A stretch of DNA of 64,000 bases from contig CP032507.1 in NCBI GenBank assembly GCA_008375315.1, positions 248,001 to 312,000 on the forward strand, in the 5' to 3' direction. Made by a program: the position numbers and the translations under genes. Source of the stretch: Ectothiorhodospiraceae bacterium BW-2. GTDB taxonomy: Bacteria; Pseudomonadota; Gammaproteobacteria; Thiohalomonadales; Thiohalomonadaceae. This document shows positions 18,626-45,039 of the stretch, piece after piece; positions within the stretch are counted from its first letter, which is position 1, and every line of letters starts with the position of its first letter. Below the pieces are notes generated by a model, which searched no databases, was not told where the DNA came from, and saw only the letters and a program-made list of their open reading frames with translations.

Positions 18626-18642
18626 GACGGTAACTCCTGATT

Positions 18643-26635: not shown

Positions 26636-28228
26636 TTAACACCCCCACCGGTGCGGCAGCCCCTCTCGGGCCGGGCAGTACCAGAACTTATCCTCCCAAC
26701 TGACCTTAGGATTGCGGTTAAAGATCACTAAATGCGCCTCCTCCGCCCCACACCCATCGGCATAATCGAGCGTCTGCTGGCACCCTTCGGCCAGTAGTTG
26801 TTCTAAGTCGCCCCGTTGCAGCTTCAGCTCCACCACCACCCGCTGCACTTCGCCCCAGAAGCCCGCCGTTTCATCCACCGGCCACTCAATGATGAGATCG
26901 GTACGCCGCCGACCGAGGGCATATTCACGGTTAATGCGCCCGCCACCGTTGATAATCCGCTGCAAAAACGCCTGCATTAATAGCTGCGGCCCCGCCTCTT
27001 TGTAGTCAAACCGTTCAACCCAGCTCTCGGCGTTGTCGCGAAAAAAGTGCCGAAATCCGTGCAACAGTTTGACCATGTCGAGCCGTCGCTCGGCGGTGAG
27101 GTACCACTGCTGCTGTTGGTGGGTGATATTCTGCTGCATCACAATCGACAGCTCGCGTGGAATCACCTCTTGGTAGATGCGGTTGCTGATATGGATCATC
27201 GGGTGGCGCCGAATCAGCCCTAAATCTTCGCAATATTGCAGGTCATCGGCGGCTTGCTGGATGCTATCCCCCTCGCCCGCCACAATCGGTGCTATCACCC
27301 CATGCACGCGCGGTTCACACAGTTTGTCTGATAACTGATCGAGGTGGGTGGCGCGGGATTGGATCAGCCGCTCACGGGCGGCCTGATAGTGGCGTAGGGT
27401 GATGGGTTGGTGGCGGTCGCGGAGCTCTACCGCTTTCCAAGTCAGTTCGTGACCCAGTGCATTGACAAGCCACGGCTGTCCGGCGGTATCGAGCCACAGT
27501 TCGGCAAAAATCGCCTCTTCAAAGGGCTGGCCGGTCGCCTCAGTGTGCTGCTGATAGAGCTGACGGCATTCGACTTCGTTAAAGTTGCCCATCGTTAGGG
27601 ATTCGGCTTTGATATTAAAGGCGCTGCCGCCGGTGATGATGTCGCCACTGCTCTGGTGGATGCGGTAATCTTTTAAGTCGCGCACGCCGCAGAGCAGCAC
27701 CGAGTGGGGAAAGGCGTGCGGGCGTTGGGTATAACCGGTGCGCAGTTGCCGCAGCAGGGAGACTAGCGTATCGCCAATGAGGGCATCGACCTCATCCAGT
27801 AGCAGGACTATCGGACGGTCGCTGCGCTGGCACCAGAAATTGAGCAGGGCTTGTAGCTGCTGATGCGGTGTCTTTTCCGAACCCTCCTGTTTTAACCACG
27901 CCAGAAGCTGGTTGTCTCCCCGATCCATCGCCACGGTTTCCGCGATAGCCAGACAGATGGTTTTAATTCCTGCTCCCACATCATTGCGTGCGGTCTGCGC
28001 CGTTTCAATGTTGACATAGAGAGCACTATAACGCCCTTCCGCATTGAGCCGCTCGACCATCGCCAGCAGGGTGGTGGTTTTGCCGGTCTGGCGCGGCGCA
28101 TGGAGCAGAAAGTAGCGCTGGCTGTCGATAAGATAGCTCAGCTCCGCCCAGTTGAGCCGCATAAGTGGCGGCAGGGTGTAGTTCAGCTCCGCCTTTTGCG
28201 GCCCAGCGGTGTTAAAAAATTTATCCAT
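26636..28228 (-). CDS. AAA ATPase-nuclease, array copy 1 (B-V1-C1)
   Basis: 530 residues. Walker A is APRQTGKT (44-51) and Walker B is PIVLLLDEVDAL (139-150). A sensor-like region follows (SVLLCGVRDLKDYRIH), then a winged-helix-like stretch and a C-terminal PD-(D/E)XK-like nuclease core (YALGRRRTDLIIEW, Asp444; VVVELKLQRGD, E467/K469; then QTLDYADGCG). This is an AAA-like ATPase of unknown function. It is the most diverged at the C-terminus (LLHGFRHFFRDNAESWVERF, WPVDETAGFWGEVQRV), so it may be the least gene-converted copy. It is the array end nearest hemG. The V1 cassette reads NDVGAGIKTICLAIAETV. Confidence 0.8.
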   Translation of the reverse strand: MDKFFNTAGPQKAELNYTLPPLMRLNWAELSYLIDSQRYFLLHAPRQTGKTTTLLAMVERLNAEGRYSALYVNIETAQTARNDVGAGIKTICLAIAETVAMDRGDNQLLAWLKQEGSEKTPHQQLQALLNFWCQRSDRPIVLLLDEVDALIGDTLVSLLRQLRTGYTQRPHAFPHSVLLCGVRDLKDYRIHQSSGDIITGGSAFNIKAESLTMGNFNEVECRQLYQQHTEATGQPFEEAIFAELWLDTAGQPWLVNALGHELTWKAVELRDRHQPITLRHYQAARERLIQSRATHLDQLSDKLCEPRVHGVIAPIVAGEGDSIQQAADDLQYCEDLGLIRRHPMIHISNRIYQEVIPRELSIVMQQNITHQQQQWYLTAERRLDMVKLLHGFRHFFRDNAESWVERFDYKEAGPQLLMQAFLQRIINGGGRINREYALGRRRTDLIIEWPVDETAGFWGEVQRVVVELKLQRGDLEQLLAEGCQQTLDYADGCGAEEAHLVIFNRNPKVSWEDKFWYCPAREGLPHRWGC

Positions 28229-28404
28229 TCATCTCATCCTCTCTGTTTTTCACCTAACCGGTAGATGGTGGATAGCGCGACTCTAAAAAATATCGCGATC
28301 CGAGGCTGCTGCCAAGAATCCAGCCCATGGGTGCCATCCGTTCCGTCAATCGGGGCGATGAACAAGGCCGATTGGTTTAAGTATCGACAGCCGGCGCAGC
28401 GGCA

Positions 28405-30012
28405 TTAACACCCCCATAAATGGGGCTGGTTCTCCCGTGCGGGGCAGTACCAGAGCTTCTCCTCCCAGCTCACTTTCGGGTCGCGGTTGAAGATAAGCAG
28501 ATGCGACTCCTCGGCACCACAGCCGTCGGCATAGTCGAGGGTCTGGGTGATACCTTTGGCAATGAGCTCTTCTAAATCACCCCGTTGCAGTTTTAGCTCG
28601 ACCACTATCCGCTGCACCGGCCCAAAGAAGCCCTGCGCCTCATCCAGCGACCACTCGATAGTGAGGTCGGTGCGCTTACGGCCTAAGGCATATTCGCGCT
28701 GAATCCGCCCGCCGCCGTTAATAATCCGCTGCAAAAAGGCCTGCATCAGCAGTTGCGGCCCCGCCTCTTTGTAGTCAAAGCGCTCAATCCAGCCCTCGGC
28801 GTTCTCACGGAAGAAGTGTTGGAAGGCTTTGAGGAGTTTGACCATATTCAGTCGCCGGTCGGGGTGGAGGTACCACACCTGCTCCTGATTGGCGATGGTG
28901 GTCTGGGTGATCCATGTCAGCTCACGCGGAATCACTTCGCGATAGATGCGATTGCTAATGCGCAGCGAGGGGCGCGACACCACTAAACCCAAATCTTCGC
29001 AATATTGGCGGTCATCCAGTGGAACCGGCTGCTCTAACTCATCCACCCCTGCCAGTAAGGGGGCAATCACTCGCCGCACCCGCTCCTCTTGCAGCTTGTG
29101 CGCTAACTGGTCGAGGTGGGTGGCGCGGGATTGAATCAGCCGCTCACGGGCGGCCTGATAGTGGCGTAGGGTGATGGGTTGGCGGCGGTCGCGGAGTCCC
29201 ACCTCTTCCCAAGTCAGTTCGTGGCCAAGGGCATTGACAAGCCACGGCTGTCCGGCGGTGTCGAGCCACAACTCGGCAAAAATGCCCTCTTCAAAGGGCT
29301 GGCCGGTCGCTTCGGTGTGCTGCTGATAGAGTTGGCGGCATTCGATTTCGTTGAAATTGCCCATCGTGAGCGACTTAGCCTTAATGTTAAAGGCGCTGCC
29401 GCCGGTGATGATGTCGCCGCTGCTCTGGTGGATGCGGTAATCTTTTAAGTCGCGCACCCCACAGAGCAGCACCGAGTGGGGAAAGGCAAGGGGGCGCTGG
29501 GTGTAGCCGGTGCGCAGTTGCCGCAGCAGGGAGACCAGTGTATCGCCAATGAGGGCATCGACCTCATCTAATAGCAGGACTATCGGCTTAGGGTGGTGCA
29601 GGCTCCACCGCTCTAGCAGATTAAAGACCAGCCCGTGGTGACTCTCCCCATGGTGGGGCTGCGCCTCCAGCCAATCGAGCAGTGAGCTATCGTGCAATGT
29701 GAGACGTGCTGATCGGGCAATGGCATTGGCAACCGTATAGTTACCAATCGTGATCTGATTCCGCGCCGTCTGCGCCATTTCAATGTTGACATAGAGGGCA
29801 CTATAACGCCCTTCCGCATTGAGCCGCTCGACCATCGCCAGCAGGGTGGTGGTTTTCCCCGTCTGGCGGGGGGCGTGGAGCAGAAAGTAGCGTTTTTGGT
29901 CAATCAGATGGTGAATCTCTGCCCAATGAACGCGCTGCATCGGGTCGAGCGTATAGTGATCGGCGGCAATCTGCGGCCCTGCGGTGTTAAAAAACTTCTC
30001 CACTCCTCTCAT
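28405..30012 (-). CDS. AAA ATPase-nuclease, array copy 2 (A-V2-C2)
   Basis: 535 residues with the same domain order as copy 1: ATPase, linker, PD-(D/E)XK-like end. The N-terminus is type A (GPQIAADHYTLDPMQRVHW) and the cassette is V2 (NQITIGNYTVANAIARSARL, then QPHHGESHHGLVF). The C-terminal half is C2 (AHKLQEERVRRVIAP, TWITQTTIANQEQVWY). The start ATG overlaps the stop of a 39-codon leader as ATGA. All ATPase and nuclease residues are present, so it looks functional. Confidence 0.8.
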   Translation of the reverse strand: MRGVEKFFNTAGPQIAADHYTLDPMQRVHWAEIHHLIDQKRYFLLHAPRQTGKTTTLLAMVERLNAEGRYSALYVNIEMAQTARNQITIGNYTVANAIARSARLTLHDSSLLDWLEAQPHHGESHHGLVFNLLERWSLHHPKPIVLLLDEVDALIGDTLVSLLRQLRTGYTQRPLAFPHSVLLCGVRDLKDYRIHQSSGDIITGGSAFNIKAKSLTMGNFNEIECRQLYQQHTEATGQPFEEGIFAELWLDTAGQPWLVNALGHELTWEEVGLRDRRQPITLRHYQAARERLIQSRATHLDQLAHKLQEERVRRVIAPLLAGVDELEQPVPLDDRQYCEDLGLVVSRPSLRISNRIYREVIPRELTWITQTTIANQEQVWYLHPDRRLNMVKLLKAFQHFFRENAEGWIERFDYKEAGPQLLMQAFLQRIINGGGRIQREYALGRKRTDLTIEWSLDEAQGFFGPVQRIVVELKLQRGDLEELIAKGITQTLDYADGCGAEESHLLIFNRDPKVSWEEKLWYCPARENQPHLWGC

Positions 30013-30128
30013 CCTCTCGGTTTTGCGCCTAAAACCGGCGGTTTGGCGCCGAACTGTAGCAGATAGCGATCCTGATTCTCCTCTCTAACCCGACCGATAT
30101 CGGTTAGCGCGTAGTGGTTAAACACCAT
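30009..30128 (-). CDS. Leader ORF of array copy 2, PP2C-like 5' fragment
   Basis: 39 codons with CAGGAG before the ATG. The protein starts MVFNHYALTDIGRVREENQD, matching the PP2C phosphatase N-terminus (T-D-x-G-x-V-R-x-x-N-x-D), and then runs out into GAKPPVLGAKPRG. The stop overlaps the ATPase start (ATGA), so translation of the ATPase is probably coupled. It is a captured 5' end, not a full phosphatase. Confidence 0.6.
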   Translation of the reverse strand: MVFNHYALTDIGRVREENQDRYLLQFGAKPPVLGAKPRG

Positions 30129-30191: not shown

Positions 30192-31794
30192 TTAACACCC
30201 CCATAAATGGGGCTGGTTCTCCCGTGCGGGGCAGTACCAGAGCTTCTCCTCCCAGCTCACTTTCGGGTCGCGGTTGAAGATAAGCAGATGCGACTCCTCG
30301 GCACCACAGCCGTCGGCATAGTCGAGGGTCTGGGTGATACCTTTGGCAATGAGCTCTTCTAAATCACCCCGTTGCAGTTTTAGCTCGACCACTATCCGCT
30401 GCACCGGCCCAAAGAAGCCCTGCGCCTCATCCAGCGACCACTCGATAGTGAGGTCGGTGCGCTTACGGCCTAAGGCATATTCGCGCTGAATCCGCCCGCC
30501 GCCGTTAATAATCCGCTGCAAAAAGGCCTGCATTAGCAGTTGCGGCCCCGCCTCTTTGTAGTCAAAGCGCTCTATCCAGCCCTCGGCGTTCTCACGGAAG
30601 AAGTGTTGGAAGGCTTTGAGGAGTTTGACCATATTCAGTCGCCGGTCGGGGTGGAGGTACCACACCTGCTCCTGATTGGCGATATGGTCTGGGTGAGCAA
30701 GGTCAGCTAACGCGAAATAACTTACACGATAGATGCGATTGCTAATGCGCAGCGAGGGGCGCGACACCACTAAACCCAAATCTTCGCAATATTGGCGGTC
30801 ATCCGTGGAACCGGCTGCTCTAACTCATCCACCCCTGCCAGTAAGGGGCAATCACTCGCCGCACCCGCTCCTCTTGCAGCTTGTGCGCTAACTGGTCGAG
30901 GTGGGTGGCGCGGGATTGAATCAGCCGCTCACGGGCGGCCTGATAGTGTTGCAAGGTAATGGTTTGGCTGCGGTCGCGCAACGCCACCTCTTCCCAAGTC
31001 AGTTCGTGGCCGAGCGCATTGACAAGCCACGGCTGTCCGGCGGTGTCGAGCCACAGCTCGGCAAAAATGCCCTCTTCAAAGGGCTGGCCGGTCGCTTCGG
31101 TGTGCTGCTGATAGAGTTGGCGGCATTCGACTTCGTTGAAATTGCCCATCGTGAGCGACTTAGCCTTAATGTTAAAGGCGCTGCCGCCGGTGATAATCTC
31201 GCCGCTGCTCTGGTGGATGCGGTAATCTTTTAAGTCGCGCACGCCGCAGAGCAGCACCGAGTGGGGAAAGGCGTGCGGGCGCTGGGTGTAGCCGGTGCGC
31301 AGTTGGCGCAGCAGGGAGACTAGCGTATCGCCAATGAGGGCATCGACCTCATCCAGTAGCAGCACAATCGGACGGTCGCTGCGCTGGCACCAGAAATTGA
31401 GCAGGGCTTGTAGCTGCTGATGCGGTGTCTTTTCCGAACCCTCCTGTTTTAACCACGCCAGAAGTTGGTTGTCTCCCCGATCCATCGCCACAGTTTCCGC
31501 GATAGCCAGACAGATGGTTTTAATTCCTGCTCCCACATCATTGCGTGCGGTCTGCGCCGTTTCAATGTTGACATAGAGGGCACTATAACGCCCTTCCGCA
31601 TTGAGCCGCTCGACCATCGCCAGCAGGGTGGTGGTCTTCCCCGTCTGGCGGGGGGCGTGGAGCAGAAAGTAGCGTTTTTGGTCAATCAGATGGTGAATCT
31701 CTGCCCAATGAACGCGCTGCATCGGGTCGAGCGTATAGTGATCGGCGGCAATCTGCGGCCCTGCGGTGTTAAAAAACTTCTCCACTCCTCTCAT
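30192..31794 (-). pseudogene. AAA ATPase-nuclease, array copy 3 (A-V1-C2), frameshifted
   Basis: The N-terminal 320 residues (31794 to about 30830) and the last 190 residues read well but in different frames. One base is missing at about 30806 in the GTCATCC-GTGG context and one G at about 30846. A further patch at about 30683-30730 carries many clustered substitutions and small indels relative to the other copies (RVSYFALADLAHPDHIANQ replaces REVIPRELTWITQTTIANQ). The rest is nearly identical to neighbours, so damage is local and recent. The protein would lack the C-terminal nuclease. Confidence 0.8.
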
Positions 31795-31973: not shown

Positions 31974-33575
31974 TTAACACCCCCATAAATGGGGCTGGTT
32001 CTCCCGTGCGGGGCAGTACCAGAGCTTCTCCTCCCAGCTCACTTTCGGGTCGCGGTTGAAGATAAGCAGATGCGACTCCTCGGCACCACAGCCGTCGGCA
32101 TAGTCGAGGGTCTGGGTGATACCTTTGGCAATGAGCTCTTCTAAATCGCCCCGTTGCAGTTTTAGCTCGACCACTATCCGCTGCACCGGCCCAAAGAAGC
32201 CCTGCGCCTCATCCAGCGACCACTCGATAGTGAGGTCGGTGCGCTTACGGCCTAAGGCATATTCGCGCTGAATCCGCCCGCCGCCGTTAATAATCCGCTG
32301 CAAAAAGGCCTGCATTAGCAGTTGCGGCCCCGCCTCTTTGTAGTCAAAGCGCTCTATCCAGCTTTCGGCGTTCTCGCGGAAGAAGTGTTGGAAGGCTTTG
32401 AGGAGTTTGACCATGTCAAGCCGCCGCTCGGCGGTGAGGTACCACTGCTGCTGTTGGTGGGTGATGTTCTGCTGCATCACAATCGACAGCTCGCGTGGAA
32501 TCACCTCTTGGTAGATGCGGTTGCTGATATGGACCATCGGGTGGCGCCGAATCAGCCCTAAATCTTCGCAATATTGCAGGTCATCGGCGGCTTGCTGGAT
32601 GCTATCCCCTTCGCCCGCTACAATCGGTGCTATCACCCCATGCACGCGCGGTTCACACAGTTTGTCTGACAACTGATCGAGGTGGGTGGCGCGGGATTGA
32701 ATCAGCCGCTCACAGGCGGCCTGATAGTGTTGCAAGGTAATGGTTTGGCTGCGGTCGCGCAACGCCACCTCTTCCCAGGTCAACTCATGGCCGAGCGCAT
32801 TGACCAGCCACGGCTGTCCGGCGGTATCGAGCCACAACTCGGCAAAAATGCCCTCTTCAAAGGGCTGGCCGGTCGCCTCAGTGTGCTGCTGATAGAGTTG
32901 GCGGCATTCGACTTCGTTGAAATTGCCCATCGTGAGCGACTTAGCCTTAATGTTAAAGGCGCTGCCACCGGTGATAATGTCGCCGCTGCTCTGGTGGATG
33001 CGGTAATCTTTTAAGTCGCGCACGCCGCAGAGCAGCACCGAGTGGGGAAAGGCGTGCGGGCGTTGGGTGTAGCCGGTGCGCAGTTGGCGCAGCAGGGAGA
33101 CTAGCGTATCGCCAATAAGGGCATCGACCTCATCGAGCAGCAGCACAATCGGCTTCGGGTGGTGCAGACTCCACTGCTCCAGTAGATTCAGAATCAGCCC
33201 ATGGTTCTCCTCGTGATGGGTTTGCGCCTCCAGCCAGTGCAGCAGTGAATCGTCGCGCAGTGTGAGGCGTACCGTTCGGGCAATGGCATGGGCGATGGTG
33301 TAATGGCCAATCGCCACTTGATTTCGTGCCGTCTGCGCCGCTTCGATGTTGACATAGAGCGTGGTATAACGCCCCTCGGCGTTCAACTGTTCGACGATGG
33401 CCAGCAGGGTGGTGGTTTTCCCCGTCTGGCGGGGGGCGTGGAGCAGAAAGTAGCGTTTTTGGTCAATCAGATGGTGAATCTCTGCCCAATGAACGCGCTG
33501 CATCGGGTCGAGCGTATAGTGATCGGCGGCAATCTGCGGCCCTGCGGTGTTAAAAAACTTCTCCACTCCTCTCAT
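31974..33575 (-). CDS. AAA ATPase-nuclease, array copy 4 (A-V3-C1)
   Basis: 533 residues, type A N-terminus. The cassette is V3 (NQVAIGHYTIAHAIARTVRL, then QTHHEENHGLIL), related to V2 but clearly distinct. The C-terminal half is C1 (SDKLCEPRVHGVIAPIVAGE, SIVMQQNITHQQQQWYLTAE). Around the ATPase motif it has MVERL changed to IVEQL, shared only with copy 11, so the V3 block includes flanking sequence. Catalytic motifs are intact. It is preceded by the PP2C-like leader. Confidence 0.8.
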   Translation of the reverse strand: MRGVEKFFNTAGPQIAADHYTLDPMQRVHWAEIHHLIDQKRYFLLHAPRQTGKTTTLLAIVEQLNAEGRYTTLYVNIEAAQTARNQVAIGHYTIAHAIARTVRLTLRDDSLLHWLEAQTHHEENHGLILNLLEQWSLHHPKPIVLLLDEVDALIGDTLVSLLRQLRTGYTQRPHAFPHSVLLCGVRDLKDYRIHQSSGDIITGGSAFNIKAKSLTMGNFNEVECRQLYQQHTEATGQPFEEGIFAELWLDTAGQPWLVNALGHELTWEEVALRDRSQTITLQHYQAACERLIQSRATHLDQLSDKLCEPRVHGVIAPIVAGEGDSIQQAADDLQYCEDLGLIRRHPMVHISNRIYQEVIPRELSIVMQQNITHQQQQWYLTAERRLDMVKLLKAFQHFFRENAESWIERFDYKEAGPQLLMQAFLQRIINGGGRIQREYALGRKRTDLTIEWSLDEAQGFFGPVQRIVVELKLQRGDLEELIAKGITQTLDYADGCGAEESHLLIFNRDPKVSWEEKLWYCPARENQPHLWGC

Positions 33576-33754: not shown

Positions 33755-35350
33755 TTAACACCCCCATAAATGGGGCTGGTTCTCCCGTGCGGGGCAGTAC
33801 CAGAGCTTCTCCTCCCAGCTCACTTTCGGGTCGCGGTTGAAGATAAGCAGATGCGACTCCTCGGCACCACAGCCGTCGGCATAGTCGAGGGTCTGGGTGA
33901 TACCTTTGGCAATGAGCTCTTCTAAATCACCCCGTTGCAGTTTTAGCTCGACCACTATCCGCTGCACCGGCCCAAAGAAGCCCTGCGCCTCATCCAGCGA
34001 CCACTCGATAGTGAGGTCGGTGCGCTTACGGCCTAAGGCATATTCGCGCTGAATCCGCCCGCCGCCGTTAATAATCCGCTGCAAAAAGGCCTGCATTAGC
34101 AGTTGCGGCCCCGCCTCTTTGTAGTCAAAGCGCTCTATCCAGCCCTCGGCGTTCTCACGGAAGAAGTGTTGGAAGGCTTTGAGGAGTTTGACCATATTCA
34201 GTCGCCGGTCGGGGTGGAGGTACCACACCTGCTCCTGATTGGCGATAGTGGTCTGGGTGATCCAGGTCAGCTCACGCGGAATCACTTCACGATAGATGCG
34301 ATTGCTAATGCGCAGCGAGGGGCGCGACACCACTAAACCCAAATCTTCGCAATATTGGCGGTCATCCCGTGGAACCGGCTGCTCTAACTCATCCACCCCT
34401 GCCAGTAAGGGGGCAATCACTCGCCGCACCCGCTCCTCTTGCAGCTTGTGCGCTAACTGGTCGAGGTGGGTGGCGCGGGATTGAATCAGCCGCTCACGGG
34501 CGGCCTGATAGTGTTGCAAGGTAATGGTTTGGCTGCGGTCGCGCAACGCCACCTCTTCCCAAGTCAGTTCGTGGCCGAGCGCATTGACAAGCCACGGCTG
34601 TCCGGCGGTGTCGAGCCACAGCTCGGCAAAAATGCCCTCTTCAAAGGGCTGGCCGGTCGCTTCGGTGTGCTGCTGATAGAGTTGGCGGCATTCGACTTCG
34701 TTGAAATTGCCCATCGTGAGCGACTTAGCCTTAATGTTAAAGGCGCTGCCGCCGGTGATAATCTCGCCGCTGCTCTGGTGGATGCGGTAATCTTTTAAGT
34801 CGCGCACGCCGCAGAGCAGCACCGAGTGGGGAAAGGCGTGCGGGCGCTGGGTGTAGCCGGTGCGCAGTTGGCGCAGCAGGGAGACCAGTGTATCGCCAAT
34901 GAGGGCATCGACCTCATCGAGTAGCAGCACAATCGGACGGTCGCTGCGCTGGCACCAGAAATTGAGCAGGGCTTGTAGCTGCTGATGCGGTGTCTTTTCC
35001 GAACCCTCCTGTTTTAACCACGCCAGAAGTTGGTTGTCTCCCCGATCCATCGCCACAGTTTCCGCGATAGCCAGACAGATGGTTTTAATTCCTGCTCCCA
35101 CATCATTGCGTGCGGTCTGCGCCGTTTCAATGTTGACATAGAGGGCACTATAACGCCCTTCCGCATTGAGCCGCTCGACCATCGCCAGCAGGGTGGTGGT
35201 TTTGCCGGTCTGGCGCGGCGCATGGAGCAGAAAGTAGCGCTGGCTGTCGATAAGATAGCTCAGCTCCGCCCAGTTGAGCCGCATAAGTGGCGGCAGGGTG
35301 TAGTTCAGCTCCGCCTTTTGCGGCCCAGCGGTGTTAAAAAATTTATCCAT
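33755..35350 (-). CDS. AAA ATPase-nuclease, array copy 5 (B-V1-C2)
   Basis: 531 residues. Type B N-terminus (MDKFFNTAGPQKAELNYTLP), cassette V1 as in copies 1 and 3, and C2 C-terminal half. From the cassette to the end it matches the damaged copy 3 almost base for base, but intact, so copy 5 is a likely recent relative of copy 3 that differs upstream of the Walker A motif. The start has AGAGAGGATGAGATGA upstream and no PP2C-like leader. Confidence 0.8.
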   Translation of the reverse strand: MDKFFNTAGPQKAELNYTLPPLMRLNWAELSYLIDSQRYFLLHAPRQTGKTTTLLAMVERLNAEGRYSALYVNIETAQTARNDVGAGIKTICLAIAETVAMDRGDNQLLAWLKQEGSEKTPHQQLQALLNFWCQRSDRPIVLLLDEVDALIGDTLVSLLRQLRTGYTQRPHAFPHSVLLCGVRDLKDYRIHQSSGEIITGGSAFNIKAKSLTMGNFNEVECRQLYQQHTEATGQPFEEGIFAELWLDTAGQPWLVNALGHELTWEEVALRDRSQTITLQHYQAARERLIQSRATHLDQLAHKLQEERVRRVIAPLLAGVDELEQPVPRDDRQYCEDLGLVVSRPSLRISNRIYREVIPRELTWITQTTIANQEQVWYLHPDRRLNMVKLLKAFQHFFRENAEGWIERFDYKEAGPQLLMQAFLQRIINGGGRIQREYALGRKRTDLTIEWSLDEAQGFFGPVQRIVVELKLQRGDLEELIAKGITQTLDYADGCGAEESHLLIFNRDPKVSWEEKLWYCPARENQPHLWGC

Positions 35351-35513: not shown

Positions 35514-37109
35514 TTAACACCCCCATAAATGGGGCTGGTTCTCCCGGGCGGGACAGTACCAGAGCTTCTCCTCCCAGCTCACTTTCGGGTCGCGGTTGAA
35601 GATAAGCAGATGCGACTCCTCGGCACCACAGCCGTCGGCATAGTCGAGGGTCTGGGTGATACCTTTGGCAATGAGCTCTTCTAAATCGCCCCGTTGCAGT
35701 TTTAGCTCGACCACTATCCGCTGCACCGGCCCAAAGAAGCCCTGCGCCTCATCCAGCGACCACTCGATAGTGAGGTCGGTGCGCTTACGGCCTAAGGCAT
35801 ATTCGCGCTGAATCCGCCCGCCGCCGTTAATAATCCGCTGCAAAAAGGCCTGCATTAATAGCTGCGGCCCCGCCTCTTTGTAGTCAAAGCGCTCTATCCA
35901 GCTTTCGGCGTTCTCGCGGAAGAAGTGTTGGAAGGCTTTGAGGAGTTTGACCATGTCGAGCCGCCGCTCGGCGGTGAGGTACCACTGCTGCTGTTGGTGG
36001 GTGATGTTCTGCTGCATCACAATCGACAGCTCGCGTGGAATCACCTCTTGGTAGATGCGGTTGCTGATATGGGCCATCGGGTGGCGCCGAATCAGCCCTA
36101 AATCTTCGCAATATTGCAGGTCATCGGCGGCTTGCTGGATGCTATCCCCTTCGCCCGCTACAATCGGTGCTATCACCCCATGCACGCGCGGTTCACACAG
36201 TTTGTCTGATAACTGATCGAGGTGGGTGGCGCGGGATTGAATCAGCCGCTCACGGGCGGCCTGATAGTGTTGCAAGGTAATGGTTTGGCTGCGGTCGCGG
36301 AGTGCGCTCTCCTTCCAAGTCAGTTCGTGGCCGAGCGCATTGACAAGCCACGGCTGTCCGGCGGTATCGAGCCACAACTCGGCAAAAATGCCCTCTTCAA
36401 AGGGCTGGCCGGTCGCCTCAGTGTGCTGCTGATAGAGCTGACGGCATTCGACTTCGTTAAAGTTGCCCATCGTTAGGGATTCGGCTTTGATATTAAAGGC
36501 GCTGCCGCCGGTGATGATGTCGCCACTGCTCTGGTGGATGCGGTAATCTTTTAAGTCGCGCACGCCGCAGAGCAGCACCGAGTGGGGAAAGGCGTGCGGG
36601 CGTTGGGTATAACCGGTGCGCAGTTGGCGCAGCAGGGAGACTAGCGTATCGCCAATGAGGGCATCGACCTCATCTAATAGCAGGACTATCGGCTTAGGGT
36701 GGTGCAGGCTCCACCGCTCTAGCAGATTAAAGACCAGCCCGTGGTGACTCTCCCCATGGTGGGGCTGCGCCTCCAGCCAATCGAGCAGTGAGCTATCGTG
36801 CAATGTGAGACGCGCTGATCGGGCAATGGCATTAGCAACCGTATAGTTACCAATCGTGATCTGATTCCGCGCCGTCTGCGCCATTTCAATGTTGACATAG
36901 AGGGCACTATAACGCCCTTCCGCATTGAGCCGCTCGACCATCGCCAGCAGGGTGGTGGTTTTGCCGGTCTGGCGCGGCGCATGGAGCAGAAAGTAGCGCT
37001 GGCTGTCGATAAGATAGCTCAGCTCCGCCCAGTTGAGCCGCATGAGTGGCGGTAATGTGTAGTTCAGCTCCGCCTTTTGCGGCCCAGCGGTGTTAAAAAA
37101 TTTATCCAT
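35514..37109 (-). CDS. AAA ATPase-nuclease, array copy 6 (B-V2-C1)
   Basis: 531 residues. Type B N-terminus, cassette V2 as in copy 2, and C1 C-terminal half as in copies 1, 4, 7 and 10. The region after the ATPase core (NIKAESLTMGNFNEVECR) matches copy 1, while the nuclease domain matches the others, so at least two exchange points lie inside this gene. All motifs are intact. Confidence 0.8.
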   Translation of the reverse strand: MDKFFNTAGPQKAELNYTLPPLMRLNWAELSYLIDSQRYFLLHAPRQTGKTTTLLAMVERLNAEGRYSALYVNIEMAQTARNQITIGNYTVANAIARSARLTLHDSSLLDWLEAQPHHGESHHGLVFNLLERWSLHHPKPIVLLLDEVDALIGDTLVSLLRQLRTGYTQRPHAFPHSVLLCGVRDLKDYRIHQSSGDIITGGSAFNIKAESLTMGNFNEVECRQLYQQHTEATGQPFEEGIFAELWLDTAGQPWLVNALGHELTWKESALRDRSQTITLQHYQAARERLIQSRATHLDQLSDKLCEPRVHGVIAPIVAGEGDSIQQAADDLQYCEDLGLIRRHPMAHISNRIYQEVIPRELSIVMQQNITHQQQQWYLTAERRLDMVKLLKAFQHFFRENAESWIERFDYKEAGPQLLMQAFLQRIINGGGRIQREYALGRKRTDLTIEWSLDEAQGFFGPVQRIVVELKLQRGDLEELIAKGITQTLDYADGCGAEESHLLIFNRDPKVSWEEKLWYCPARENQPHLWGC

Positions 37110-37286: not shown

Positions 37287-38879
37287 TTAACACCCCCATA
37301 AATGGGGCTGGTTCTCCCGGGCGGGGCAGTACCAGAGCTTCTCCTCCCAGCTCACTTTCGGGTCGCGGTTGAAGATAAGCAGATGCGACTCCTCGGCACC
37401 ACAGCCGTCGGCATAGTCGAGGGTCTGGGTGATACCTTTGGCAATGAGCTCTTCTAAATCGCCCCGTTGCAGTTTTAGCTCGACCACTATCCGCTGCACC
37501 GGCCCAAAGAAGCCCTGCGCCTCATCCAGCGACCACTCGATAGTGAGGTCGGTGCGCTTACGGCCTAAGGCATATTCGCGCTGAATCCGCCCGCCGCCGT
37601 TAATAATCCGCTGCAAAAAGGCCTGCATTAGCAGTTGCGGCCCCGCCTCTTTGTAGTCAAAGCGCTCTATCCAGCTTTCGGCGTTCTCGCGGAAGAAGTG
37701 TTGGAAGGCTTTGAGGAGTTTGACCATGTCGAGCCGCCGCTCGGCGGTGAGGTACCACTGCTGCTGTTGGTGGGTGATGTTCTGCTGCATCACAATCGAC
37801 AGCTCGCGTGGAATCACCTCTTGGTAGATACGGTTGCTGATATGGACCATCGGGTTGCGCCGAATTAGCCCTAAATCTTCGCAATATTGCAGGTCATCGG
37901 CGGCTTGCTGGATGCTATCCCCTTCGCCCGCTACAATCGGTGCTATCACCCCATGCACGCGCGGTTCACGCAGTTTGTCTGACAACTGATCGAGGTGGGT
38001 GGCGCGGGATTGAATCAGCCGCTCACGGGCGGCCTGATAGTGTTGCAAGGTAATGGTTTGGCTGCGGTCGCGCAACGCCACATCTTCCCAGGTCAACTCA
38101 TGGCCGAGCGCATTGACAAGCCACGGCTGTCCGGCGGTATCGAGCCACAACTCGGCAAAAATGCCCTCTTCAAAGGGCTGGCCGGTCGCTTCGGTGTGCT
38201 GCTGATAGAGTTGGCGGCACTCCGCTGCGCTGAAATTGCCCATCGTGAGCGACTTAGCCTTAATGTTAAAGGCGCTGCCACCGGTGATAATGTCGCCGCT
38301 GCTCTGGTGGATGCGGTAATCTTTTAAGTCGCGCACGCCGCAGAGCAGCACCGAGTGGGGAAAGGCGTGCGGGCGTTGGGTATAACCGGTGCGCAGTTGG
38401 CGCAGCAGGGAGACTAGCGTATCGCCAATGAGGGCATCGACCTCATCTAGTAGCAGGACTATCGGCTTGGGGTGAACCGAAGCCCACCAGCTTAACAGGG
38501 CACTAAATCGCTGCATCGCTTCCGCTTCAGCAATGATTTGATGCCCTGCGCTGGCATCAATCAGATGGGGTGCCGTGGCGCGAATACTCTGCAACAGGGC
38601 ATCGCAGAACTGCCGATCGCCGAGTTCGGCATTCTGTCGTGCCACCTGCGACCGCTCTAAATTGACATAGAGGGCACTATAACGCCCTTCCGCATTGAGC
38701 CGCTCGACCATCGCCAGCAGGGTGGTGGTTTTGCCGGTCTGGCGCGGCGCATGGAGCAGAAAGTAGCGCTGGCTGTCGATAAGATAGCTCAGCTCCGCCC
38801 AGTTGAGCCGCATGAGTGGCGGCAGGGTGTAGTTCAGCTCCGCCTTTTGCGGCCCAGCGGTGTTAAAAAATTTATCCAT
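37287..38879 (-). CDS. AAA ATPase-nuclease, array copy 7 (B-V4-C1)
   Basis: 530 residues. Type B N-terminus and cassette V4 (LERSQVARQNAELGDRQF, then IDASAGHQIIAEAEAMQRF), the most different of the four cassettes. The C1 C-terminal half has LREPRVHG. It shares the variant NFSAAECRQLYQQ only with copy 10. Outside the N-terminal type, copies 7 and 10 are nearly the same gene. Confidence 0.8.
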   Translation of the reverse strand: MDKFFNTAGPQKAELNYTLPPLMRLNWAELSYLIDSQRYFLLHAPRQTGKTTTLLAMVERLNAEGRYSALYVNLERSQVARQNAELGDRQFCDALLQSIRATAPHLIDASAGHQIIAEAEAMQRFSALLSWWASVHPKPIVLLLDEVDALIGDTLVSLLRQLRTGYTQRPHAFPHSVLLCGVRDLKDYRIHQSSGDIITGGSAFNIKAKSLTMGNFSAAECRQLYQQHTEATGQPFEEGIFAELWLDTAGQPWLVNALGHELTWEDVALRDRSQTITLQHYQAARERLIQSRATHLDQLSDKLREPRVHGVIAPIVAGEGDSIQQAADDLQYCEDLGLIRRNPMVHISNRIYQEVIPRELSIVMQQNITHQQQQWYLTAERRLDMVKLLKAFQHFFRENAESWIERFDYKEAGPQLLMQAFLQRIINGGGRIQREYALGRKRTDLTIEWSLDEAQGFFGPVQRIVVELKLQRGDLEELIAKGITQTLDYADGCGAEESHLLIFNRDPKVSWEEKLWYCPARENQPHLWGC

Positions 38880-39055
38880 TCATCTCATCCTCTCTGTTTT
38901 TCACCTAACCGGTAGATGGTGGATAGCGCGACTCTAAAAAATATCGCGATCCGAGGCTGCTGCCCAGAATCCAGCCCATGGGTGCCACCCGTTCCGTCAA
39001 TCGGGGCGATGAACAAGGCCGATTGGTTTAAGTATCGACAGTCGGCGCAGCGGCA

Positions 39056-40651
39056 TTAACACCCCCATAAATGGGGCTGGTTCTCCCGTGCGGGGCAGTA
39101 CCAGAGCTTCTCCTCCCAGCTCACTTTCGGGTCGCGGTTGAAGATAAGCAGATGCGACTCCTCAGCACCACAGCCGTCGGCATAGTCGAGGGTCTGGGTG
39201 ATACCTTTGGCAATGAGCTCTTCTAAATCGCCCCGTTGCAGTTTTAGCTCGACCACTATCCGCTGCACCGGCCCAAAGAAGCCCTGCGCCTCATCCAGCG
39301 ACCACTCGATAGTGAGGTCGGTGCGCTTACGGCCTAAGGCATATTCGCGCTGAATCCGCCCGCCGCCGTTAATAATCCGCTGCAAAAAGGCCTGCATTAG
39401 CAGTTGCGGCCCCGCCTCTTTGTAGTCAAAGCGCTCTATCCAGCCCTCGGCGTTCTCGCGGAAGAAGTGTTGGAAGGCTTTGAGGAGTTTGACCATATTC
39501 AGTCGCCGGTCGGGGTGGAGGTACCACACCTGCTCCTGATTGGCGATGGTGGTCTGGGTGATCCAGGTCAGCTCACGCGGAATCACTTCGCGATAGATGC
39601 GATTGCTAATGCGCAGCGAGGGGCGCGACACCACTAAACCCAAATCTTCGCAATATTGGCGGTCATCCAGTGGAACCGGCTGCTCTAACTCATCCACCCC
39701 TGCCAGTAAGGGGGCAATCACTCGCCGCACCCGCTCCTCTTGCAGCTTGTGCGCTAACTGGTCGAGGTGGGTGGCGCGGGATTGAATCAGCCGCTCACGG
39801 GCGGCCTGATAGTGGCGTAGGGTGATGGGTTGGCGGCGGTCGCGGAGTCCCACCTCTTCCCAAGTCAGTTCGTGGCCAAGGGCATTGACAAGCCACGGCT
39901 GTCCGGCGGTGTCGAGCCACAACTCGGCAAAAATGCCCTCTTCAAAGGGCTGGCCGGTCGCCTCGGTGTGCTGCTGATAGAGCTGGCGGCATTCGACTTC
40001 GTTGAAGTTGCCCATCGTTAGGGATTTGGCTTTGATATTAAAGACGCTGCCGCCGGTGATGATGTCGCCACTGCTCTGGTGGATGCGGTAATCTTTTAAG
40101 TCGCGCACGCCGCAGAGCAGCACCGAGTGGGGAAAGGCGTGCGGGCGCTGGGTATAACCGGTGCGCAGTTGCCGCAGCAGGGAGACTAGCGTATCGCCAA
40201 TGAGGGCATCGACCTCATCTAGTAGCAGGACTATCGGCTTGGGGTGAACCGAAGCCCACCAGCTTAACAGGGCACTAAATCGCTGCATCGCTTCCGCTTC
40301 AGCAATGATTTGATGCCCTGCGCTGGCATCAATCAGATGGGGTGCCGTGGCGCGAATACTCTGCAACAGGGCATCGCAGAACTGCCGATCGCCGAGTTCG
40401 GCATTCTGTCGTGCCACCTGCGACCGCTCTAAATTGACATAGAGGGCACTATAACGCCCTTCCGCATTGAGCCGCTCGACCATCGCCAGCAGGGTGGTGG
40501 TCTTCCCCGTCTGGCGGGGGGCGTGGAGCAGAAAGTAGCGCTGGCTGTCGATAAGATAGCTCAGCTCCGCCCAGTTGAGCCGCATAAGTGGCGGCAGGGT
40601 GTAGTTCAGCTCCGCCTTTTGCGGCCCAGCGGTGTTAAAAAATTTATCCAT
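39056..40651 (-). CDS. AAA ATPase-nuclease, array copy 8 (B-V4-C2)
   Basis: 531 residues. Type B N-terminus, cassette V4, and C2 C-terminal half. It shares the rare GGSVFNIKAKS variant and everything downstream of Walker A with copy 9, from which it differs at the N-terminus and spacer. This pair locates an exchange point close to the Walker A codons. Confidence 0.8.
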   Translation of the reverse strand: MDKFFNTAGPQKAELNYTLPPLMRLNWAELSYLIDSQRYFLLHAPRQTGKTTTLLAMVERLNAEGRYSALYVNLERSQVARQNAELGDRQFCDALLQSIRATAPHLIDASAGHQIIAEAEAMQRFSALLSWWASVHPKPIVLLLDEVDALIGDTLVSLLRQLRTGYTQRPHAFPHSVLLCGVRDLKDYRIHQSSGDIITGGSVFNIKAKSLTMGNFNEVECRQLYQQHTEATGQPFEEGIFAELWLDTAGQPWLVNALGHELTWEEVGLRDRRQPITLRHYQAARERLIQSRATHLDQLAHKLQEERVRRVIAPLLAGVDELEQPVPLDDRQYCEDLGLVVSRPSLRISNRIYREVIPRELTWITQTTIANQEQVWYLHPDRRLNMVKLLKAFQHFFRENAEGWIERFDYKEAGPQLLMQAFLQRIINGGGRIQREYALGRKRTDLTIEWSLDEAQGFFGPVQRIVVELKLQRGDLEELIAKGITQTLDYADGCGAEESHLLIFNRDPKVSWEEKLWYCPARENQPHLWGC

Positions 40652-40778: not shown

Positions 40779-42383
40779 TTAACACCCCCATAAATGGGGC
40801 TGGTTCTCCCGGGCGGGGCAGTACCAGAGCTTCTCCTCCCAGCTCACTTTCGGGTCGCGGTTGAAGATAAGCAGATGCGACTCCTCGGCACCACAGCCGT
40901 CGGCATAGTCGAGGGTCTGGGTGATACCTTTGGCAATGAGCTCTTCTAAATCGCCCCGTTGCAGTTTTAGCTCGACCACTATCCGCTGCACCGGCCCAAA
41001 GAAGCCCTGCGCCTCATCCAGCGACCACTCGATAGTGAGGTCGGTGCGCTTACGGCCTAAGGCATATTCGCGCTGAATCCGCCCGCCGCCGTTAATAATC
41101 CGCTGCAAAAAGGCCTGCATCAGCAGTTGCGGCCCCGCCTCTTTGTAGTCAAAGCGCTCTATCCAGCCCTCGGCGTTCTCGCGGAAGAAGTGTTGGAAGG
41201 CTTTGAGGAGTTTGACCATATTCAGTCGCCGGTCGGGGTGGAGGTACCACACCTGCTCCTGATTGGCGATGGTGGTCTGGGTGATCCAGGTCAGCTCACG
41301 CGGAATCACTTCGCGATAGATGCGATTGCTAATGCGCAGCGAGGGGCGCGACACCACTAAACCCAAATCTTCGCAATATTGGCGGTCATCCAGTGGAACC
41401 GGCTGCTCTAACTCATCCACCCCTGCCAGTAAGGGGGCAATCACTCGCCGCACCCGCTCCTCTTGCAGCTTGTGCGCTAACTGGTCGAGGTGGGTGGCGC
41501 GGGATTGAATCAGCCGCTCACGGGCGGCCTGATAGTGGCGTAGGGTGATGGGTTGGCGGCGGTCGCGGAGTCCCACCTCTTCCCAAGTCAGTTCGTGGCC
41601 AAGGGCATTGACAAGCCACGGCTGTCCGGCGGTGTCGAGCCACAACTCGGCAAAAATGCCCTCTTCAAAGGGCTGGCCGGTCGCCTCGGTGTGCTGCTGA
41701 TAGAGCTGGCGGCATTCGACTTCGTTGAAGTTGCCCATCGTTAGGGATTTGGCTTTGATATTAAAGACGCTGCCGCCGGTGATGATGTCGCCACTGCTCT
41801 GGTGGATGCGGTAATCTTTTAAGTCGCGCACGCCGCAGAGCAGCACCGAGTGGGGAAAGGCGTGCGGGCGCTGGGTATAACCGGTGCGCAGTTGCCGCAG
41901 CAGGGAGACTAGCGTATCGCCAATGAGGGCATCGACCTCATCTAGTAGCAGGACTATCGGCTTGGGGTGAACCGAAGCCCACCAGCTTAACAGGGCACTA
42001 AATCGCTGCATCGCTTCCGCTTCAGCAATGATTTGATGCCCTGCGCTGGCATCAATCAGATGGGGTGCCGTGGCGCGAATACTCTGCAACAGGGCATCGC
42101 AGAACTGCCGATCGCCGAGTTCGGCATTCTGTCGTGCCACCTGCGACCGCTCTAAATTGACATAGAGGGCACTATAACGCCCTTCCGCATTGAGCCGCTC
42201 GACCATCGCCAGCAGGGTGGTGGTCTTCCCCGTCTGGCGGGGGGCGTGGAGCAGAAAGTAGCGTTTTTGGTCAATCAGATGGTGAATCTCTGCCCAATGA
42301 ACGCGCTGCATCGGGTCGAGCGTATAGTGATCGGCGGCAATCTGCGGCCCTGCGGTGTTAAAAAACTTCTCCACTCCTCTCAT
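40779..42383 (-). CDS. AAA ATPase-nuclease, array copy 9 (A-V4-C2)
   Basis: 534 residues. Type A N-terminus with a PP2C-like leader, cassette V4, and C2 C-terminal half. The body equals copy 8. The spacer between copies 8 and 9 is the shortest in the array (127 bases) because part of the B-type spacer is deleted. All motifs are intact. Confidence 0.8.
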   Translation of the reverse strand: MRGVEKFFNTAGPQIAADHYTLDPMQRVHWAEIHHLIDQKRYFLLHAPRQTGKTTTLLAMVERLNAEGRYSALYVNLERSQVARQNAELGDRQFCDALLQSIRATAPHLIDASAGHQIIAEAEAMQRFSALLSWWASVHPKPIVLLLDEVDALIGDTLVSLLRQLRTGYTQRPHAFPHSVLLCGVRDLKDYRIHQSSGDIITGGSVFNIKAKSLTMGNFNEVECRQLYQQHTEATGQPFEEGIFAELWLDTAGQPWLVNALGHELTWEEVGLRDRRQPITLRHYQAARERLIQSRATHLDQLAHKLQEERVRRVIAPLLAGVDELEQPVPLDDRQYCEDLGLVVSRPSLRISNRIYREVIPRELTWITQTTIANQEQVWYLHPDRRLNMVKLLKAFQHFFRENAEGWIERFDYKEAGPQLLMQAFLQRIINGGGRIQREYALGRKRTDLTIEWSLDEAQGFFGPVQRIVVELKLQRGDLEELIAKGITQTLDYADGCGAEESHLLIFNRDPKVSWEEKLWYCPARENQPHLWGC

Positions 42384-42499
42384 CCTCTCTGTTTTTCGCC
42401 TAAAACCGGCGGTTTGGCGCCGAACTGTAGCAGATAGCGATCCTGATTCTCCTCTCTAACCAGACCGATATCGGTTAGCGCGTAGTGGTTAAACACCAT
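42380..42499 (-). CDS. Leader ORF of array copy 9, PP2C-like 5' fragment
   Basis: The same 39-codon leader, ATG 42499, overlapping the copy 9 start as ATGA. One substitution changes the arginine of DIGRVRE to leucine, showing that the leader peptide sequence is not strictly conserved. Confidence 0.5.
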   Translation of the reverse strand: MVFNHYALTDIGLVREENQDRYLLQFGAKPPVLGEKQRG

Positions 42500-42562
42500 A
42501 AGGTAACTCCTGAACAGGTAAGTGAACGATTAGGTTAAGTATCGACAGCCGGCGCAGCGGCA

Positions 42563-44164
42563 TTAACACCCCCATAAATGGGGCTGGTTCTCCCGGGCGG
42601 GGCAGTACCAGAGCTTCTCCTCCCAGCTCACTTTCGGGTCGCGGTTGAAGATAAGCAGATGCGACTCCTCGGCACCACAGCCGTCGGCATAGTCGAGGGT
42701 CTGGGTGATACCTTTGGCAATGAGCTCTTCTAAATCGCCCCGTTGCAGTTTTAGCTCGACCACTATCCGCTGCACCGGCCCAAAGAAGCCCTGCGCCTCA
42801 TCCAGCGACCACTCGATAGTGAGGTCGGTGCGCTTACGGCCTAAGGCATATTCGCGCTGAATCCGCCCGCCGCCGTTAATAATCCGCTGCAAAAAGGCCT
42901 GCATTAGCAGTTGCGGCCCCGCCTCTTTGTAGTCAAAGCGCTCTATCCAGCTTTCGGCGTTCTCGCGGAAGAAGTGTTGGAAGGCTTTGAGGAGTTTGAC
43001 CATGTCGAGCCGCCGCTCGGCGGTGAGGTACCACTGCTGCTGTTGGTGGGTGATGTTCTGCTGCATCACAATCGACAGCTCGCGTGGAATCACCTCTTGG
43101 TAGATACGGTTGCTGATATGGACCATCGGGTTGCGCCGAATTAGCCCTAAATCTTCGCAATATTGCAGGTCATCGGCGGCTTGCTGGATGCTATCCCCTT
43201 CGCCCGCTACAATCGGTGCTATCACCCCATGCACGCGCGGTTCACGCAGTTTGTCTGACAACTGATCGAGGTGGGTGGCGCGGGATTGAATCAGCCGCTC
43301 ACGGGCGGCCTGATAGTGTTGCAAGGTAATGGTTTGGCTGCGGTCGCGCAACGCCACCTCTTCCCAGGTCAACTCATGGCCGAGCGCATTGACAAGCCAC
43401 GGCTGTCCGGCGGTATCGAGCCACAACTCGGCAAAAATGCCCTCTTCAAAGGGCTGGCCGGTCGCTTCGGTGTGCTGCTGATAGAGTTGGCGGCACTCCG
43501 CTGCGCTGAAATTGCCCATCGTGAGCGACTTAGCCTTAATGTTAAAGGCGCTGCCACCGGTGATAATGTCGCCGCTGCTCTGGTGGATGCGGTAATCTTT
43601 TAAGTCGCGCACGCCGCAGAGCAGCACCGAGTGGGGAAAGGCGTGCGGGCGTTGGGTATAACCGGTGCGCAGTTGGCGCAGCAGGGAGACTAGCGTATCG
43701 CCAATGAGGGCATCGACCTCATCCAGTAGTAGGACTATCGGCTTGGGGTGAACCGAAGCCCACCAGCTTAACAGGGCACTAAATCGCTGCATCGCTTCCG
43801 CTTCAGCAATGATTTGATGCCCTGCGCTGGCATCAATCAGATGGGGTGCCGTGGCGCGAATACTCTGCAACAGGGCATCGCAGAACTGCCGATCGCCGAG
43901 TTCGGCATTCTGTCGTGCCACCTGCGACCGCTCTAAATTGACATAGAGGGCACTATAACGCCCTTCCGCATTGAGCCGCTCGACCATCGCCAGCAGGGTG
44001 GTGGTCTTCCCCGTCTGGCGGGGGGCGTGGAGCAGAAAGTAGCGTTTTTGGTCAATCAGATGGTGAATCTCTGCCCAATGAACGCGCTGCATCGGGTCGA
44101 GCGTATAGTGATCGGCGGCAATCTGCGGCCCTGCGGTGTTAAAAAACTTCTCCATTCCTCTCAT
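42563..44164 (-). CDS. AAA ATPase-nuclease, array copy 10 (A-V4-C1)
   Basis: 533 residues from ATG 44164 (MRGMEKFFNTAG); the frame opens further upstream at 44233 but that part is spacer. Type A N-terminus, cassette V4, and C1 half with LREPRVHG and NFSAAECR as in copy 7. Its leader is cut off after about 40 bases at GGCGGTTCGGAA and replaced by unrelated sequence, so it has lost the PP2C-like leader. All motifs are intact. Confidence 0.8.
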   Translation of the reverse strand: MRGMEKFFNTAGPQIAADHYTLDPMQRVHWAEIHHLIDQKRYFLLHAPRQTGKTTTLLAMVERLNAEGRYSALYVNLERSQVARQNAELGDRQFCDALLQSIRATAPHLIDASAGHQIIAEAEAMQRFSALLSWWASVHPKPIVLLLDEVDALIGDTLVSLLRQLRTGYTQRPHAFPHSVLLCGVRDLKDYRIHQSSGDIITGGSAFNIKAKSLTMGNFSAAECRQLYQQHTEATGQPFEEGIFAELWLDTAGQPWLVNALGHELTWEEVALRDRSQTITLQHYQAARERLIQSRATHLDQLSDKLREPRVHGVIAPIVAGEGDSIQQAADDLQYCEDLGLIRRNPMVHISNRIYQEVIPRELSIVMQQNITHQQQQWYLTAERRLDMVKLLKAFQHFFRENAESWIERFDYKEAGPQLLMQAFLQRIINGGGRIQREYALGRKRTDLTIEWSLDEAQGFFGPVQRIVVELKLQRGDLEELIAKGITQTLDYADGCGAEESHLLIFNRDPKVSWEEKLWYCPARENQPHLWGC

Positions 44165-44520
44165 CCTCTCGGTTTTGCGCCTAAAACCGGCGGTTCGGAA
44201 TCTGTAACTGATGTGACGCAAACTCAAGTCCACAGGCCCTCTATTCCCCTCTACCGCAAACGGGCGAGGGGCGATAGAAGCGGCGCTGGCAGAGCCGTTT
44301 GTCGATATGCGGAATCATCCAGAGCAGCAGTTAAGGGCACGCTTCGACCGCAGTGATGGTCATCCCCCTCGACAAAAAACAATACTCCAGAGCAGGCGGC
44401 GGCGCAACCCTTCTGTTTCACCTTGGCGGGCGTGGCCAATCTAGCTCTGCACCGAGGCCCGTATCTCTGGTGGGTTGATCGCGCTCGTGGGTTAATGGGC
44501 GCGGAGTGGGGGAAGGCTAG
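44165..44520. other. Foreign segment between array copies 10 and 11
   Basis: About 350 bases unlike any other spacer in the array. They replace the leader of copy 10 and the C-terminal two thirds of copy 11. No gene is evident. Junctions on both sides lie inside array sequence, suggesting a deletion filled by, or a recombination with, outside DNA. Confidence 0.5.
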
Positions 44521-45039
44521 GGGGCGTTGGGGGTAGCCGGTGCGCAGTTGGCGCAGCAGGGAGACTAGCGTATCGCCAATGAGGGCATCGACCTCATCGA
44601 GCAGCAGCACAATCGGCTTCGGGTGGTGCAGACTCCACTGCTCCAGTAGATTCAGAATCAGACCATGGCTCTCCTCGTGATGGGTTTGCGCCTCCAGCCA
44701 GTGCAGCAGTGAATCGTCGCGCAGTGTGAGGCGTACCGTTCGGGCAATGGCATGGGCGATGGTGTAATGGCCAATCGCCACTTGATTTCGTGCCGTCTGC
44801 GCCGCTTCGATGTTGACATAGAGCGTGGTATAACGCCCCTCGGCGTTCAACTGTTCGACGATGGCCAGCAGGGTGGTGGTTTTCCCCGTCTGGCGGGGGG
44901 CGTGGAGAAGAAAGTAGCGTTTTTGGTCAATCAGATGGTGAATCTCTGCCCAATGAACGCGCTGCATCGGGTCGAGCGTATAGTGATCGGTGGCAATCTG
45001 CGGCCCTGCGGTGTTAAAAAACTTCTCCATTCCTCTCAT
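44251..45039 (-). pseudogene. AAA ATPase-nuclease, array copy 11 (A-V3, truncated)
   Basis: Type A N-terminus and cassette V3 (QTHHEESHGLIL), intact through Walker B and RQLRTGYPQRPLAFPHS at about residue 177. The frame then runs into unrelated sequence to a stop at 44251. The nuclease domain is missing. It is the outermost copy and probably a broken array end. Together with copy 4 it is the only carrier of V3. Confidence 0.8.

Follow-up and report, generated by a model that had tools for sequence, protein, structure and literature searches.

Mosaic tandem arrays of predicted ATPase-nuclease genes with exchangeable modules in Ectothiorhodospiraceae bacterium BW-2

In a window of 64,000 nucleotides from the genome of Ectothiorhodospiraceae bacterium BW-2 (contig CP032507.1, positions 248,001 to 312,000), eleven copies of a gene encoding a predicted ATPase-nuclease were arranged head to tail on the minus strand (26636-45039) with a repeat unit of ~1.77 kb. 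Diverged modules were reassorted between constant catalytic blocks, both within this array and between arrays, and the genome as a whole contained about 60 AAA-nuclease genes of two families, most of them in tandem arrays. We give a probability of roughly one half to the reading that the array is part of a recombining specificity repertoire of some 60 genes for single-polypeptide, ATP-switched nucleases.

Mosaic structure of the array

The genome is a single closed contig of 4,074,140 bases (completeness 99.73%). The window array comprised nine intact genes encoding 530-535 amino acids, while of the two remaining copies one was frameshifted and the other truncated (Table 1). An earlier note on this DNA had given the array its correct coordinates and strand, but had counted ten full-length intact copies and nine combinations of parts; copies 1-10 carried ten different combinations of N-terminal type, cassette and C-type, none of them repeated. 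Cassette V4 was present in all four combinations of N- and C-types (copies 7-10), and the pairs 7/10 and 8/9 differed almost only at the N-terminus, as the note had observed. Each unit consisted of the NTPase-nuclease gene alone, with no HsdM methyltransferase or HsdR partner. A purine-rich stretch resembling a ribosome binding site preceded most of the intact copies (nine of the eleven copies being intact), and no promoter signal above chance was detected inside the array. In silent-cassette antigenic variation, for comparison, most donor copies are silent, start-less or truncated, and a single site is expressed.

Table 1. Copies and modules of the window array (window positions), and clusters of DUF1703 genes (genome positions, k = kb)
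Feature	Position	Strand	Description
Copy 1	26636..28228	(-)	N1-V1-A, intact; lies at the array edge and has a nuclease end of its own (block dS 1.35 vs copy 5)
Copy 2	28405..30012	(-)	N2-V2-B, intact
Copy 3	30192..31794	(-)	N2-V1-B, pseudogene; frameshifts give ORFs of 324 and 195 aa
Copy 4	31974..33575	(-)	N2-V3-A, intact
Copy 5	33755..35350	(-)	N1-V1-B, intact
Copy 6	35514..37109	(-)	N1-V2-A, intact; charge form E209/K265
Copy 7	37287..38879	(-)	N1-V4-A, intact; source of the structure model
Copy 8	39056..40651	(-)	N1-V4-B, intact
Copy 9	40779..42383	(-)	N2-V4-B, intact
Copy 10	42563..44164	(-)	N2-V4-A, intact; ATG start (listed ORF: GTG at 44233)
Copy 11	44251..45039	(-)	N2-V3, truncated past Walker B; unrelated sequence replaces the 3' part
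N-terminal module, copy 7, residues 1-37	38769..38879	(-)	Example
N1-linked upstream region	38880..39055	(-)	Example
N2-linked upstream region	42384..42562	(-)	Example
Cassette V4, copy 7, residues 73-139	38463..38663	(-)	Helices between strand 2 and Walker B
Charge-swap module, copy 7, residues 198-284	38028..38288	(-)	K209/E265
Winged-helix module, copy 7, residues 300-391	37707..37982	(-)
PD-(D/E)XK-like domain, copy 7, residues 411-530	37287..37649	(-)	Conserved putative active-site residues D444, E467-x-K469, Q485
DUF1703 clusters	493-498k, 543-548k, 652-659k, 873-882k, 986-996k
DUF1703 clusters, continued	1220-1237k, 2817-2820k, 3370-3380k, 3442-3448k

Recombination statistics were calculated on a codon alignment of the nine intact window copies with 299 informative sites. 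The PHI value was 0.072, compared with 0.598 ± 0.008 in shuffled sites, none of 1000 shuffles gave a value as low, and the minimum number of recombination events (Rm) was 33. The sharp breakpoints and the gene conversion or crossing-over between copies that the note had proposed were thus supported, and the exchange was found to extend to distant arrays, as described below.

Three blocks were shared between copies, the P-loop (residues 38-72), Walker B (140-197) and the nuclease end (392-530), with dS near zero in many pairs, while in the diverged modules dS ranged from about 1 to saturation. The N-terminal module (residues 1-37) was saturated in dS with a dN of 0.34-0.38, dN in the cassette (73-139) reached 1.26, and the winged-helix module (300-391, types A and B) had a dS of about 1.4 and a dN of 0.31. 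What had been described as two C-terminal halves proved to be this central winged-helix module; the nuclease end itself was common to all copies except copy 1, the edge copy, which has kept its own nuclease block as would be expected if exchange homogenises the inner repeats. The two N-terminal types were borne out; each was linked to its own type of upstream intergenic region of ~130-180 bp, and a further diverged module carrying a charge swap (198-284) also varied. The promoter region and the N-terminal arm move as one unit.

The closely related cassettes V2 and V3 had a dN/dS of about 0.15, which gives no indication that point changes are under positive selection. The finding that every combination was distinct goes only weakly beyond free shuffling (permutation P = 0.07 for the window, P = 0.16 for seven arrays of DUF1703 genes), and it was dropped as proof of selection on these grounds.

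Predicted fold and known relatives of the protein

The AlphaFold2 model of copy 7 had a pLDDT of 83 and a pTM of 0.78. Residues 2-358 best matched two archaeal ATPases, 2QEN (Z 16.9) and 2FNA (Z 15.4), over 311-312 aligned residues, followed by NLRs, Orc/Cdc6 and TnsC, and the NTPase and winged-helix fold of 2QEN and 2FNA was present in the model. The Pfam family AAA_22 scored above its curated cut-off in all three copies scanned (30.5-34.2 vs 27), and AAA_35 did so in copy 1 alone of the three (29.9 vs 27). The C-terminal domain, modelled separately, had a pLDDT of 89.5. Its nuclease character was recognised from VIA matches to CinB/CidB, BamHI, NucS/EndoMS and Hjc (Z 5.5-8.9) together with the conserved residues listed in Table 1. 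Foldseek alone gave no nuclease identity (best E 0.014, with parts of acetyl-CoA carboxylase ranking high), and a sequence search against solved structures returned NTPase fragments only. Of 31 family members, 8 matched PDDEXK_9 (PF08011; best 6.9e-5), and the window member was not one of them. The PD-(D/E)XK-type nuclease end proposed in the note was supported: this end fits the restriction-endonuclease fold, and the whole protein is predicted to be a STAND/AAA+ NTPase with a winged helix and a PD-(D/E)XK nuclease. The note had likened the cassette to an antigenic or target-recognition repertoire; antigenic variation of a surface protein is a poor fit to an NTPase-nuclease.

In every one of 29 copies, residues 209 and 265 were opposite in charge; the pair had swapped independently five times, each time in the same direction. 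The forms K-E, E-K, E-R and E-H occurred across arrays and phyla (window example, 38085-38255), which suggests that the two residues form a salt bridge. The net charge ranged from +0 to -5 in the cassette and from +2 to -7 in the winged helix, so that neither module is basic.

There was no good match among curated NCBIfam or PADLOC families. The PADLOC scan gave weak matches in the NTPase region (mad8, 5e-5 at best) and a match to LmuA (1e-7) in 2 of 36 members, and on these weak matches the family was not assigned to a known defence system.

The closest described relatives are the DUF1703 proteins, whose combination of AAA and PD-(D/E)XK domains was published in 2007 (Knizewski et al., PMC1913061). 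Like the window proteins they have an AAA+ NTPase, a helical middle and a PD-(D/E)XK end in one chain, and they form expanded sets of paralogues. Window copies, however, scored 19.6, 16.9 and 17.4 bits with PF09820, below the cut-off of 26.1, and a related copy at 890280 was borderline (25.6-27.3 bits). The Walker A motif of the window family was HAPRQTGKT, in contrast to RPRRFGK(S/T) in DUF1703, including the canonical copies of this genome. By these sequence differences the window family is a sister of DUF1703 and not a curated member. The statement in the note that no such system was known was too strong, since an expansion of 25 recombining DUF1703 paralogues, with intragenic recombination, was reported in Cardinium cCpun (PMC6387759). 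Those paralogues average 39% identity, and the part of that report drawn on here describes neither tandem arrays nor fixed swapped segments; in BW-2, exchange was confined to defined modules, and the canonical DUF1703 genes of this genome had a mosaic of the same kind.

The best structural matches, 2QEN (PABY2304) and 2FNA (SSO1545), are STAND/MNS-type proteins with the NTPase core and winged helix, but the solved chains are about 350 residues long and have no nuclease end. To our knowledge, no mosaic arrays are known for the archaeal STAND/MNS-type ATPases. The type I restriction-modification specificity subunit HsdS, with its shuffled target-recognition domains (PMC7394358), offers a likeness of layout: its constant parts carry the recombination and two exchangeable specificity parts multiply the combinations. 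It is an unrelated protein, whereas the BW-2 family lacks a methyltransferase partner and has NTPase and nuclease in one chain, and HsdS systems have one expressed gene with spares where BW-2 has many complete genes in tandem. The Orc1/Cdc6 proteins also have an AAA+ core, and the parts of them that vary or confer specificity likewise lie between Walker A and B (the ISM) and in a winged helix; archaeal Orc1-2 requires both of these parts to bind DNA specifically (PMC9738581). The BW-2 proteins differ from them in having a PD-(D/E)XK end, bacterial multicopy arrays and non-basic modules, and they are not initiators.

No paper describing tandem arrays with fixed modules was found in the open-licence literature. 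What is new is 1) that fixed modules are swapped in tandem arrays, that factorial combinations are complete and that one genome has about 60 copies, and 2) that module lineages predate the arrays and extend across genera, with recurrence in other phyla and on plasmids.

Arrays elsewhere in the genome and in other organisms

The window-type family had 32 matches in the closed 4.07-Mb genome, 26 of them intact members in four arrays and as single genes. Beyond the window there were three copies at 889-896k, seven at 2851-2864k and four at 1768-1774k. Single genes lay at 975k, 1585k and 3803k, and there were also fragments. The 889k copy had a front of its own, and its rear half matched window copy 6 at about 98% identity; the 891k copy carried the cassette of window copies 4 and 11. 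Exchange is thus also ectopic, between arrays hundreds of kilobases apart. Two genes of the 889k locus were read by eye, a caspase-like gene fragment near the array (L031:117-479) and a gene resembling the formylglycine-generating enzyme between its copies (L031:7991-9112).

In the cassette tree, copies 7-10 grouped with one gene from 2851k, one from 3803k and one V4 copy from a different genus of the same family of bacteria (support 93-99). The backbone rejected this V4 cassette clade (p = 4e-69) and the cassette data rejected a single clade of the window copies (p = 3e-7). Because the cassette clade crosses arrays and genera against the backbone, the module lineages must be older than the present arrays. 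The corresponding AU results for the winged helix, where one p was 0.155, were set aside, identical rows of different arrays having been left free.

Canonical DUF1703 (PF09820) gave a further 35 strong matches in about nine other clusters (Table 1), seven of which were aligned. All seven had a mosaic layout like that of the window, to varying degree, with near-identical blocks between variable ones. Most differences fell in three regions, namely the N-terminus, a cassette lying between Walker A (42-54) and Walker B (146-173) at about 100-175, and a stretch from about 326 to 450 surrounding a wing-like motif. The mosaic was less sharp in one array (L122), another had no cassette differences (L123), and in a third (L124) variation was seen only within and just past the cassette.

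The family was rare elsewhere and patchy in distribution, with members in 3 of 56 relatives and no clear member among 397 other genomes sampled from the phylum. Copies in metagenome-assembled genomes of Rhodoferax and Hydrogenophaga were single genes in unrelated neighbourhoods and those on plasmids were mostly one to a plasmid. The Rhodoferax/Hydrogenophaga copies were 44-51% identical in the cassette and 55-57% in the winged helix, against 86-100% in most other blocks, and the two modules varied independently of one another. Among the copies on plasmids of the cyanobacterium Pseudanabaena, the cassette or the winged helix fell to 29-62% identity where most other blocks were 72-100% identical. 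Seven of eight Pseudanabaena plasmids carried one full ATPase-nuclease gene, and one plasmid had two places. Copies of two strains had module types in common, and four P. galeata plasmids combined cassette types with winged-helix subtypes in a 2 x 2 set, the subtypes being 92-94% identical. The cassette and the winged helix were thus the main variable modules in other organisms and in the DUF1703 arrays alike. The cassette that the note had singled out is indeed variable beyond the noise of drift, for the same segment varies independently elsewhere and in the DUF1703 arrays, but at least two modules are equally strong, this cassette and the winged helix.

Several features of the surroundings were also recorded. 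On the Pseudanabaena plasmids homology often stopped at the stop codon of the ATPase-nuclease gene, a tyrosine recombinase gene lay 12-13 bp downstream of it on pPg_03 and ABRG53b, and pPg_02 retained a C-terminal remnant of 34 residues; the end of the gene may be an integration site. The neighbourhoods of loci L045-L050 were unrelated and their homology was limited to gene-sized units; roughly 13 bp ahead of the ATG these units had a conserved TACCAT, which may be the -10 box of a leaderless transcript. No relatives were found in the phage records and viral contigs searched, and a phage or virus origin was rejected on this basis.

In the window itself, a low-GC stretch (12670-21948) contained defence-like genes, encoding an mSLOG protein, AAA_15/NsnB-like ATPases and an RtcR-type CARF regulator. 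The genes for flavocytochrome c sulfide dehydrogenase and multihaem cytochromes at 57596-61388 suggest a sulfur-oxidising host.

Possible roles of the exchanged modules

The catalytic blocks (P-loop, Walker B, lid and nuclease) were near-identical between copies, and the divergent modules lying between them, namely the N-terminal arm with its upstream region, the helical cassette, the charge-swap module and the winged helix, are reassorted through homologous exchange, both inside an array and from one array to another. We propose that the cassette and the winged helix would be two specificity surfaces that set the trigger or the cut target of a constant NTPase-nuclease, and that recombination in the constant blocks would build new specificities from old parts, in the way that HsdS subunits exchange target-recognition domains. 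More speculatively, the target would be DNA of foreign or mobile origin, or one of its proteins, in a restriction- or immunity-like role; a repertoire of this kind would most naturally serve defence, although the searches of phage records, viral contigs and defence families gave no direct support for this. The analogy with Orc1/Cdc6 suggests that the modules could read DNA, but their neutral or acidic charge makes recognition of a protein or a partner subunit at least as likely, and weakens the idea of the cassette as a simple reader of DNA sequence.

Rather unlikely, though the likeliest of the alternatives, is concerted evolution with no role in recognition, in which conversion homogenises the blocks while mismatch repair preserves old divergent islands. 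The age of the modules (dS about 1 or saturated) between homogenised blocks agrees with it, as does outer copy 1, left behind as unequal exchange predicts, and free shuffling by itself makes a set of all-distinct combinations not very unlikely. Against it, different phyla, single copies on plasmids and a separate subfamily all have their islands at the same structural segments, and cassette lineages that whole-gene replacement should erase have persisted over genera and arrays.

STAND/AAA+ proteins form oligomers, and the variable modules could instead be self-association surfaces that prevent mixed complexes of paralogues. Neutral rather than basic modules and the contact-type constraint shown by the perfect 209/265 charge-swap pair are consistent with such insulation, although the charge swap could lie within one subunit. 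We regard this explanation as unlikely. The N-terminal, cassette and winged-helix types combine freely, V4 occurring in all four combinations; unlike surfaces then cannot need mutual matching, and each would have to pair with itself.

A selfish, gene-sized mobile element that spreads by homing-like cutting and repair copying, with the swapped modules setting the insertion target, is quite improbable. The DNA homology of the Rhodoferax/Hydrogenophaga copies usually began ~12-30 bp ahead of the ATG and ended 4-9 bp past the stop codon, in keeping with such an element, but gene-limited homology is also expected of a solo defence gene, and one Rhodoferax pair had about 1.9 kb of downstream sequence in common. 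Copies at different loci of the BW-2 genome shared only about 35-45 bp outside the gene, the eight Pseudanabaena plasmids had one main copy each, several of them adjoining a tyrosine recombinase gene, the 1585k singleton (L035:1357-2463) started directly after a truncated IS66-like transposase ORF, and the patchy distribution also fits. The presence of several units in tandem is not predicted by simple homing.

Misassembly of a collapsed or chimeric repeat, to which long near-identical repeats are generally prone, was rejected as a negligible risk because the genome is a single closed contig and other arrays, other organisms and complete plasmids have breakpoints at the same places.

A broader proposition is put forward tentatively, the odds being somewhat against it: that STAND/AAA+ NTPase-nucleases like those of BW-2 form a widespread single-protein specificity system in which two surface modules, the cassette and the winged helix, are reassorted via conserved catalytic blocks to give bacteria and plasmids combinatorial repertoires of ATP-switched nucleases, a restriction- or immunity-like class of diversification not previously described.

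AAA-PD-(D/E)XK families of the DUF1703-like kind are common and expanded. The locus reveals which segments evolution has swapped and which it has kept. Copies 7-10 constitute a natural factorial experiment in which one cassette is combined with all four pairings of the types of two other modules, so that the question of recognition is directly testable with four genes, and the P. galeata plasmids provide a second 2 x 2 set. If the repertoire reading is true, these arrays would represent a new way in which bacteria obtain combinatorial specificity.
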